Source of the DNA: Anaerolineaceae bacterium
Lineage (GTDB): Bacteria; Chloroflexota; Anaerolineae; Anaerolineales; Anaerolineaceae
DNA length: 64,000 nt
Direction: 5' to 3'
Assembly: GCA_002702705.1 (NCBI GenBank)
Contig: PABH01000014.1
Coordinates: 62,001-126,000 of the forward strand
Below are positions 62,289-64,000 of the stretch, piece by piece. Under the pieces are notes generated by a model, which saw only the letters and a program-made list of their open reading frames with translations, was not told where the DNA came from and searched no databases. A program made the position numbers and the translations under genes. The stretch's first letter is position 1; every line of letters starts with the position of its first letter.

Positions 62289-63635
62289 ATGAATTGGCCG
62301 CCAATTGATGTTCCCATTTTAGGACGCAGTGGTTTGATAGCTTTAATTGCATTATTGCATATTCCGTTTTTTGTTAATTTTGTAATGGGTGCGCCGGTGA
62401 TTGCCGTCATCAGTGAATGGCTGGGCAAACGGACCGGAAATCCTCGTTACGACCAATTTTCAAAACATCTGGCAACCATGGCATTTGTGACGGTAGGTGT
62501 GGGTGCTTTTGGCGGGATTGGATTGGTTGCGACCAATATAGGATTGTTTCCACGATTCTTTGCAACCGGTGCCGGGATATTCTTTTGGCCGCTGGTGTTA
62601 GAAATTGGGGCGTTTTTATTGGAAGCCATCGGGATAGCGGTTTACCGTTATACCTGGGAAAAAAACAAACATAAAACCGGTCACATGGTGATCGGATGGG
62701 TGGCAGCGTTTGGCGCCTGGTTAAGTGGTTTTATTATTAACGGTTTGGCATCTTTTATGTTAACCCCAGGCAAATGGGTTCAAAGTAAACAAATCATTGA
62801 CGCCTGGTTTAACCCCAGCTTTTTGCCTAGTTTTACCCACCGTGCAGTGGCAGCATTTTCGATTACCGGCTTTTTTATGATCATTTATTCCTTGTGGATG
62901 GCAGGCCGAAGCAAAACGGATGAAGAGAAAACCTATGCGGAATGGTCACTGCGTTATGCCGGTAAATGGGCTTTGATTGCAACTGCACTGCAGTTTTTCC
63001 CCGGGGTATGGTATCTGACTTCTGTGGAACGTGGAACCAGTCTGGCTGCGCCGGAAGGCAGTGTTGTTCCTAAATTATTAAATGGACAATTAACCTTTTT
63101 CTGGTTTGGCGGCATTATTTTGGCCGCTACGGCCATTTTATTGGTTTATTTTTTGAGTGTTCAAAACCCAAAACAAGGCTTAAAACCTTTGGGGCACTTG
63201 GGTTTAATCCTTTCCGTTTTATTGATTATCACAACAACTGCATTTATGGGTTTTACCCGTGAACGCTCCCGCAAGCCCTATTTGGTATATGGTGTCATTT
63301 ATGGTAATCAAATGATGGTGGACATGATGAAAGGGAATGCACCAGCCGCGGCACCACCAACGGAAACGAATCAGCCACAAACAGCAAATGAAACCGAAGC
63401 CGGCACGGGTGACCCGGCCGCTGGACAAGTGGTTTTTGAAACCGGCATTTGTAAGGCATGTCACAGCCTGAATGGGGATGGCGGCAGTATTAAAGCGCTG
63501 GATGGCGTTGGCGACCGCAGATCGGCAGAAAACATCCGGGAATTGTTAGGGGCTCCCCCCGAAGGCATGCCGCCTTTTACTGGCAGTCCGGAAGAAGTAA
63601 ACAACCTGGTGGCCTTTTTGTCCGGTCTGAAATAG
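62289..63635 (+). CDS. CydA-like bd-superfamily oxidase subunit fused to a cytochrome c domain
   Basis: A 448-residue membrane protein with two parts. Residues 1-350 have about nine helices and resemble CydA: a His in helix 1 (H24), two Glu in helix 3 (E105, E112) and a His after the second long loop (H184), near the positions of the haem b595/b558 ligands of CydA. The CydA Q-loop signature GRQPW is not seen. Residues 355-448 are a class I cytochrome c domain with CKACH (388-392) and an axial Met in EGMPPF (about 427), placed outside the cell. This matches the cytochrome-c-bearing (OR-C) bd-type oxygen reductases known in Chloroflexota and relatives. GGAGG precedes the start. Confidence 0.85.
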   Translation: MNWPPIDVPILGRSGLIALIALLHIPFFVNFVMGAPVIAVISEWLGKRTGNPRYDQFSKHLATMAFVTVGVGAFGGIGLVATNIGLFPRFFATGAGIFFWPLVLEIGAFLLEAIGIAVYRYTWEKNKHKTGHMVIGWVAAFGAWLSGFIINGLASFMLTPGKWVQSKQIIDAWFNPSFLPSFTHRAVAAFSITGFFMIIYSLWMAGRSKTDEEKTYAEWSLRYAGKWALIATALQFFPGVWYLTSVERGTSLAAPEGSVVPKLLNGQLTFFWFGGIILAATAILLVYFLSVQNPKQGLKPLGHLGLILSVLLIITTTAFMGFTRERSRKPYLVYGVIYGNQMMVDMMKGNAPAAAPPTETNQPQTANETEAGTGDPAAGQVVFETGICKACHSLNGDGGSIKALDGVGDRRSAENIRELLGAPPEGMPPFTGSPEEVNNLVAFLSGLK

Positions 63636-63644
63636 GAGGAAAGA

Positions 63645-64000
63645 ATGGGACCTACAGCAAGCAGTTGGTTTATTGGCAGTTTTGCGATCCTTCATTTTTT
63701 GATCGTCAGTGTAGCGGGTTTAGCGCCACTCACCATTTATCTAATGGAAGGGGTCGCCCTAAAAAAGGAAAATCCACATTTAAGAAGATTAGCCAAACAA
63801 TTAATTACCATTGTGTTGGAGTTAGCCGCCGTGGGAGGTATTTTGGGCAGTGGGGTTGTGGTTTCCTTGATTGGGTTAAGACCCGCTGTCATTACCCTCA
63901 TCTTTAATATCTTTTTTTGGCTGATTGTTTTACAGTTGGTATCTTATATTGCCGGGTTTGCCTTTCAATTTGCCTATTATTTCACCTGGGATAAAAACAG
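63645..64000 (+). CDS. Second CydA-like oxidase subunit (truncated by window end)
   Basis: The frame starts at ATG 63645 with GGAGGAAAG upstream and is still open at the last base (118 codons seen). The protein (MGPTASSWFIGSFAILHF...) has about three helices. It aligns with the first part of the upstream subunit: a His in helix 1 (ILHF), a helix-2/3 loop, and a YYFTWDKN end matching RYTWEKNK. It is therefore a CydA-type paralogue (CydA'-like) rather than CydB. The 9-bp gap indicates one operon and one complex. Confidence 0.8.
   Translation, partial: MGPTASSWFIGSFAILHFLIVSVAGLAPLTIYLMEGVALKKENPHLRRLAKQLITIVLELAAVGGILGSGVVVSLIGLRPAVITLIFNIFFWLIVLQLVSYIAGFAFQFAYYFTWDKN

Follow-up and report, generated by a model that had tools for sequence, protein, structure and literature searches.

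A CydA-like gene pair with cytochrome c on both subunits in an Anaerolineaceae genome: a candidate cytochrome c-fed oxygen reductase of the bd superfamily

From which donor does a CydA-like membrane protein that carries its own cytochrome c receive electrons, and to which acceptor does it pass them? This question is raised by two genes at the end of a 64,000-nucleotide stretch of DNA from an Anaerolineaceae bacterium (G000:C16:62001-126000, hereafter the window), in a host genome of 5.9 Mb that is 96.8% complete. The fusion of a C-terminal cytochrome c to a CydA-like core is what we take to be the defining feature of OR-C, a family of the bd superfamily said to have been defined by Murali, Gennis and Hemp in 2021. 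Our literature search found no data on OR-C enzymes and no biochemical data on the lineage described here. The family is mentioned in PMC10839748, PMC13189123 and PMC11707229; a printed definition was not found in the accessible parts of these papers or in those of PMC12342949 and PMC8951039, which give at most brief mentions. For the OR-N enzymes, the accessible part of PMC10839748 states that subunit composition and function are still without experimental confirmation. The analysis presented below makes it probable that the gene pair specifies a heterodimer, a membrane-bound O2 reductase of the bd superfamily that is fed by a periplasmic cytochrome c and not by quinol.

Two CydA-like subunits and their candidate haem ligands

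The first gene (62289..63635, plus strand) encodes a protein of 448 aa, the candidate catalytic subunit A (sub1), in which an eight-TM CydA-like core is followed by a C-terminal cytochrome c. It matches PF01654 (E 4.3e-30), PF13442 (9.5e-08) and PF00034 (1.2e-05), all above the cut-offs, as expected from a preliminary description of this DNA that had recognized a CydA-like membrane part joined to a class I cytochrome c. The core covers about residues 1-345 (62289..63323, plus strand), while Pfam, alignment and fold agree on the cytochrome c domain (63405..63632, plus strand), with CKACH at 388-392 and axial Met427 as previously described. In an alignment of 52 rows, made up of the window protein and 51 of 80 loci, the residues H24, E105, R324, E325, R328, C388, C391, H392 and M427 are invariant. 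The fold model based on this alignment (mean pLDDT 86.4, pTM 0.85) consists of eight long helices, a low-confidence linker at 351-368 and a small helical domain. All of its top 10 structural matches are CydA chains; they cover residues 3-342 at Z 30.9-33.6, with 315-327 residues matched (for 7ose_A 323, at 3.1 A), and residues of about 370-448 match cytochromes c with Z up to 9.5. Lysines and arginines of the loops number 12 in 60 residues predicted to lie inside versus 6 in 82 predicted outside, a count which omits the C-linker (4 in 50); these charges fit an N-out/C-out topology. Since TM9 is missing in sub1, this topology would bring the chain end and the cytochrome c to the periplasmic face, the location that a c-type haem requires.

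The second gene (sub2, subunit A') starts nine bases further on, at 63645. Its first 118 aa lie inside the window (63645..64000, plus strand) and the rest beyond the window end, up to L004:2901. Reading on along the contig, as the preliminary description had advised, yields a 418 aa ORF that is CydA-like and has a cytochrome c of its own (CGACH at 342-346, Met381), hidden from the earlier reading because the window ends inside the gene. In the Pfam search sub2 matches PF01654 (2.5e-07) and PF13442 (8.8e-08) over the cut-off and PF00034 below it; PF02322 (CydB) is not matched by sub2 in this search, whereas the host's own CydB does match. Its fold was modelled on the homologue from a related genome, G003 (mean pLDDT 79.4, the c domain part being of low confidence), and the top 10 matches of this model are CydA chains (Z 25.8-28.1). 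The identification of sub2 as a CydB is therefore rejected, in agreement with the earlier assignment of the second gene, although the absence of CydB chains among the fold matches listed for the G003 homologue excludes nothing alone. We propose that sub2 is a degenerate CydA copy in the structural place of CydB.

According to the accessible text of PMC6853902, His186 and Met393 of E. coli CydA bind haem b558, Glu445 binds b595 and Glu99 is a haem d ligand in that model; Glu107 is a proposed proton donor in the accessible text of PMC13189123. Aligned with this protein, sub1 has Glu105 (62601..62603) for Glu99, Glu112 (62622..62624) for Glu107, His184 (62838..62840) for His186 and Glu325 (63261..63263) for Glu445, all on the plus strand, and is without Arg391 and Met393. 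It also has His24 (62358..62360, plus strand) for His19, which we take to be a residue of the di-haem O2 site. Together with Met320 (see below), the CxxCH and M427, these five residues are conserved in 5/5 genomes of the lineage, whose proteins are 49-74% identical to that of the window. In sub2, H17, H174, M296, the CxxCH and M381 are likewise conserved in 5/5 genomes (34-60% identity); of the E. coli residues it keeps only the equivalents of His19 (H17) and His186 (H174), and its three Glu positions are occupied by Q, by G or N, and by S in 5/5 genomes. To judge from the alignments, sub1 of this lineage retains the full ligand set and sub2 has a second His186 site.

Both subunits have a methionine in TM8, five residues before the Glu445 position (in sub1 Met320, 63246..63248, plus strand). 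Among 218 homologues, 26 rows have Met393 together with Gly at this site. Of those without Met393 that can be read at both sites, 99 combine His186 with the TM8 Met and 85 have neither; the exceptions are two with His only (L062, L068) and two with Met only (both subunits of L111). The survey omits two L007 rows, from the same genome as L059, and four rows are gapped at a scored position. This alignment pattern may reflect a low-spin haem held by His (TM5) and Met (TM8), the TM8 Met replacing the lost Met393 ligand. Mapped on the tree, the residues change four times (His) and five times (Met), with three independent pairs on supported branches (four on all), and with so few evolutionary events the sign test of the coupling gives a median p of 0.5. 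At L062:4992-6224 and L068:4992-6224, a CydA-like protein with cytochrome c has His186 and neither Met393 nor the TM8 Met. A second CydA-like gene was not found at L062 or L068; the L062 gene adjoins genes for a flavin reductase-rubredoxin and a rubrerythrin, and L068 looks alike by eye.

A rare lineage on the c-fused side of the tree

A scan of reference genomes returned 204 stretches encoding relatives of sub1, the best 80 of which were analyzed; titles among these 80 include Desulfobacterales, Bacteroidales, Acidobacteria, Melainabacteria and others. A c-fused CydA-like ORF is present in each of the 80, and 71 of them have a second, Glu99-less CydA-like ORF. Genes for c-fused CydA proteins are common and of a kind already known. 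The lineage studied here is rare and differs by cytochrome c on both subunits and by His186 in the catalytic subunit. A second subunit with its own CxxCH occurs at three of the 71 loci (L059, L060 and L114), the first two of which belong to this lineage. His186 is found in 4/82 c-fused A-type ORFs of L059-L138, namely in L059 and L060 and in the L062 and L068 proteins mentioned above, and in 69 of the 71 second subunits of the same loci (one has Phe, one is cut). Two other arrangements were encountered among these relatives. At L065, L075-L077, L083, L088 and others, from records whose names include Desulfobacterales and Bacteroidales, the c-fused A subunits are about 790-910 aa long with eight CxxCH motifs; L069:5001-8726 and L072:5001-8719 each have three CydA-like genes in tandem, two c-fused A-type and one A'-type.

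The lineage comprises five genomes found: the window's own, G003 (whose contig holds L059), RSWS12 (L060, 50% identical to sub1), G482 and G483. G003 was found among 61 genomes, as one of 7 congeners, and G482 and G483 by a search of 82 genomes from the phylum of RSWS12. A search of 400 genomes from the same phylum as the window gave a lineage-level match in the host genome alone; two further full-length matches (E 1e-42) belong to the main c-fused type.

In the phylogenetic trees (second subunits aligned for 41 of 71 loci), sub1 and sub2 each cluster with their orthologues with support of 99, or 100/99 and 100/100 in a more careful tree from which 7/81 rows were dropped as long branches or near repeats. 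Neither falls within the main A or the main A' clade, both of which are supported at 100 (100/100 in the careful tree). A branch supported at 91/99 in the careful tree, and at 91 in the other, separates the c-fused proteins and their partners from canonical CydA and from c-less OR-N-like proteins. This fits the earlier view that this is no ordinary quinol oxidase and belongs on the c-fused, OR-C-like side; OR-N-like is our own label, the tree being without a named Nitrospira or Nitrospina OR-N reference. Within the c-fused side, the branching order of A, A' and this lineage has support of only 30/0 and 41/53, and the best tree joins sub1 with sub2 at 30/0, so that a duplication of their own, apart from the one behind main A and main A', is at most a possibility. 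In the tree set, H19, E99 and E445 are present in 27/27 main A subunits and Glu99 in 0/17 main A' subunits, while His186 is present in 17/17 main A' subunits of the rows retained in the careful tree, a figure limited to these rows since the dropped second subunits of L008, L010 and L111 are without it.

Could the pair then be an ordinary member of the c-fused pair family, its second cytochrome c and extra His being neutral drift? The abundance of c-fused relatives is in keeping with this, as is L114 with its c on both subunits; furthermore, the AU test allows sub1 to be grouped with the main A clade (p 0.43). On the other hand, sub1 and sub2 form supported clades of their own, His184/Met320 and His174/Met296 are conserved throughout the lineage, and the Usp-PCP_red gene described in the next section, common to c-less OR-N-like loci, was not found beside L061-L138 (flanks up to 5 kb) apart from weak partial matches at L086 and L113. 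We therefore hold drift to be a rather unlikely account of these features.

The neighbouring genes and a possible haem-handling module

Downstream of sub2 and outside the window lie two companion genes (L004:3051-4924, or 65051-66924 in continued window numbering). The first (L004:3051-3728) encodes a PPOX-like protein of 225 aa with a sub-threshold PNPOx match, the second (L004:3728-4924) a protein of 398 aa with Usp and PCP_red domains, as seen with Pfam. Both follow sub2 directly in G003 and after one intervening ORF of 168-169 aa in RSWS12 and G483; in G482 the sub2 frame runs up to the contig end. On the 5′ side, the window pair is preceded by genes for a ZnuA-like binding protein, an ABC ATPase and an ABC-3 permease, and a piece of the same permease is also found upstream of the G003 pair. 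Further along the contig, on the opposite strand, L004:6303-8486 has a multihaem cytochrome c, with a weak hydrazine dehydrogenase match far below the cut-off, adjoining a membrane protein without a Pfam match; a homologue of the latter, judged by eye, is also present at L059:5878-6792.

By its Pfam and NCBIfam names, PCP_red is a domain of a protochlorophyllide reductase subunit; our literature search found none on it among the papers listed. It occurs once in the host genome, at this locus, and in 1/14 control genomes (Synechococcus). Across 400 Chloroflexota genomes, the sub1 profile matches 30 (E up to 1e-20) and the Usp-PCP_red profile 31 (E up to 1e-60), 26 of which are common to both (Fisher p 9e-32, uncorrected for kinship). 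Four genomes (G105, G263, G329, G375) have the oxidase homologue without the companion and five (G103, G184, G285, G387, G405) the reverse. Counted by family, all 13 companion-bearing families also have an oxidase homologue, out of 15 families in all; the two without the companion are f23, which holds the main c-fused type (L140, L141), and f30. Homologue and companion are less than 10 kb apart in 13 of the 26 genomes and on different contigs in the other 13. Apart from the window's and two f23 genomes, no CxxCH was found in the ORF of the best-match locus (27/27 genomes). The companion is present in 25 of these 27 genomes; it therefore accompanies this lineage and the c-less OR-N-like proteins alike.

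In G338, a single ORF of 672 aa matches both companion profiles, with Usp, PCP_red and a weak PPOX match. In G256, CydA-like, Usp-PCP_red and PPOX-like genes stand together with a radical SAM/SPASM protein that bears PCP_red and whose best NCBIfam matches, NirJ2 and AhbD, are below the cut-off (333 and 290 of 500 bits); G338 has a similar radical SAM protein with PCP_red, and G194 one with a cut end. The positions of NirJ2/AhbD-like radical SAM/SPASM proteins near OR-N-like CydA genes are L218:8230-9582, L222:1-894 and L217:8575-11046, and PCP_red forms the C-terminus in two of the three; L219:6045-8558 encodes an 838 aa protein with two Usp and five PCP_red stretches.

The identity of the PCP_red domain and the matches to the tetrapyrrole enzymes NirJ2 and AhbD lead us to a speculative haem-handling module. 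Usp-PCP_red and PPOX-like proteins, in some relatives with a NirJ2/AhbD-like radical SAM protein bearing PCP_red, might form a dedicated module on which non-quinol bd-type oxidases, those of the OR-N-like Chloroflexota group as well as those studied here, depend for making, modifying or inserting an unusual haem, with the His(TM5)/Met(TM8) site as that of the low-spin haem. We consider this unlikely as it stands, and offer it tentatively. No second PCP_red is present in the host; the radical SAM part, if needed, must therefore be absent or different there. If the companions do handle haem, they would help to explain how these oxidases are assembled, and a new pathway of haem maturation would be linked to a terminal oxidase.

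Electron donor, function and comparison with known systems

The host also encodes a caa3-type oxidase (COX1/COX2 with c), a cbb3-like COX1 with a FixO-c fusion, and a canonical CydAB with full-length loop and GRQPW. This does not agree with the earlier suggestion that the pair is the organism's oxygen-scavenging end point, and a role as sole oxygen sink is rejected; the c-fed bd-type oxidase is predicted to be one of at least four O2 reductases in the host. At the cbb3-type locus L037:2896-4254 (host C46), FixO and several cytochrome c domains lie in one long reading frame. The donor-side genes comprise two cytochrome b proteins with c-type neighbours, NrfD and ActD. Elsewhere in the lineage, the oxidase genes have rubrerythrins (L060, L212) or a peroxiredoxin and a rubredoxin-like protein (L213) as neighbours, and these stress genes suggest a part in the defence against O2 or ROS. 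The window copy adjoins metal-transport genes, with no stress genes beside it, which we counted against the reading of the pair as a c-fed O2 reductase.

The domains, predicted fold, residues, gene order and conservation reported above can be assembled into the following scheme. Sub1 would be the catalytic subunit, with a di-haem O2 site at His24, Glu105 and Glu325 and with Glu112 on the proton path. Its cytochrome c would be tethered on the periplasmic side, where quinol enzymes have the Q-loop. A third, b-type haem would probably sit on His184, with Met320 of TM8 taking the place of the lost Met393 of TM7. Sub2 carries the second cytochrome c and may bind a low-spin haem, because it retains His17, His174 and Met296. 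The donor would be a cytochrome c, in line with the bc-type and alternative complex III-like genes of the host. Its electrons would enter at the c domain of one subunit or of both, move on to the b-type haem or haems and the di-haem site, and finally reach O2; the protons would come from the cytoplasm. The likely role would be O2 removal or respiration beside the other oxidases. We infer haem binding, partner assembly and the donor, as well as the product (water), the coupling and the O2 affinity.

The choice of cytochrome c over quinol deserves closer inspection. The preliminary description had noted that GRQPW was not visible and had called it a Q-loop motif. Its absence holds, sub1 having ERSRKPY aligned to EVGRQPW with Glu, Arg and Pro conserved; its assignment to the Q-loop does not, the motif following Glu445 at the end of TM8. 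The exact string is also missing in 5/26 Met393-bearing canonical-type rows; its absence is therefore weak evidence, and we rejected the argument that it means loss of quinol oxidation. Within the sequence, the better evidence is the missing Met393 together with the span from His186 to Glu445 (the Q-loop region), which has 141 residues in sub1 versus 202 in the host CydA; no canonical quinol loop is present, as had been supposed. The enzyme might still oxidize quinol at a non-canonical site formed in the dimer, the c domains being merely an extra outlet or branch. The archaeal CydAA' enzyme reportedly does oxidize quinol (Murali et al. 2021), and genes that by eye are sdh- and menA-like lie in the same window. 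Nevertheless, with a span 61 residues shorter, with Met393 and Arg391 both gone, and with a separate canonical CydAB in the host, a quinol oxidase seems to us improbable.

Finally, the pair might use the bd fold for a task other than O2 reduction, as a cytochrome c:quinone oxidoreductase or as a reductase of NO or peroxide; we hold this to be very unlikely. In its favour, a different mode of action, for instance one like that of alternative complex III, has been suggested for the bd-like proteins of Nitrospina (PMC3578206, accessible part), and the fold matches just below CydA are membrane subunits of alternative complex III and polysulfide reductase. Yet the former reach a Z of only 19.9 and less, well below the CydA chains, and sub1 has the H19, E99, E107 and E445 equivalents in every genome of the lineage, as the main A subunits have those of H19, E99 and E445.

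If the pair is, as we think probable, an O2 reductase fed by cytochrome c, the lineage is a target of just two genes, in which the set of candidate ligands in the catalytic subunit is complete, and which singles out His184, Met320 and specific partner genes as testable elements.

Compared with known systems, the pair has the features of the bd superfamily, with PF01654 in both subunits and the di-haem site residues in sub1. Like canonical cytochrome bd (qOR, CydAB), it has the CydA fold and the H19, E99, E107, H186 and E445 equivalents; unlike it, it has no CydB partner, no Met393 or Arg391 and no TM9 before the c domain, the Q-loop is not of full length, and c domains are added. The c-less Chloroflexota homologues and the OR-N or "bd-like oxidase" proteins of Nitrospira and Nitrospina resemble it in having His186 and the TM8 Met without Met393 (15/15 c-less rows), and the OR-N-like loci share the Usp-PCP_red companion; the latter differ in having no fused cytochrome c at their best-match loci, and the tree sets them apart. 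With OR-C the pair shares the CydA-like core with C-terminal cytochrome c, the tandem of CydA-like genes, the absence of a canonical quinol loop, the catalytic residues in A and the grouping with c-fused homologues and not with quinol oxidases. It differs from that family in carrying c on both subunits (elsewhere only at L114 among the 71 loci with a second subunit), in retaining His186 in A and in having Usp-PCP_red and PPOX-like genes downstream. The enzyme is ordinary in kind and uncommon in make-up; by its domains and its place in the tree it stands on the OR-C side, and it has some traits in common with OR-N-like proteins.
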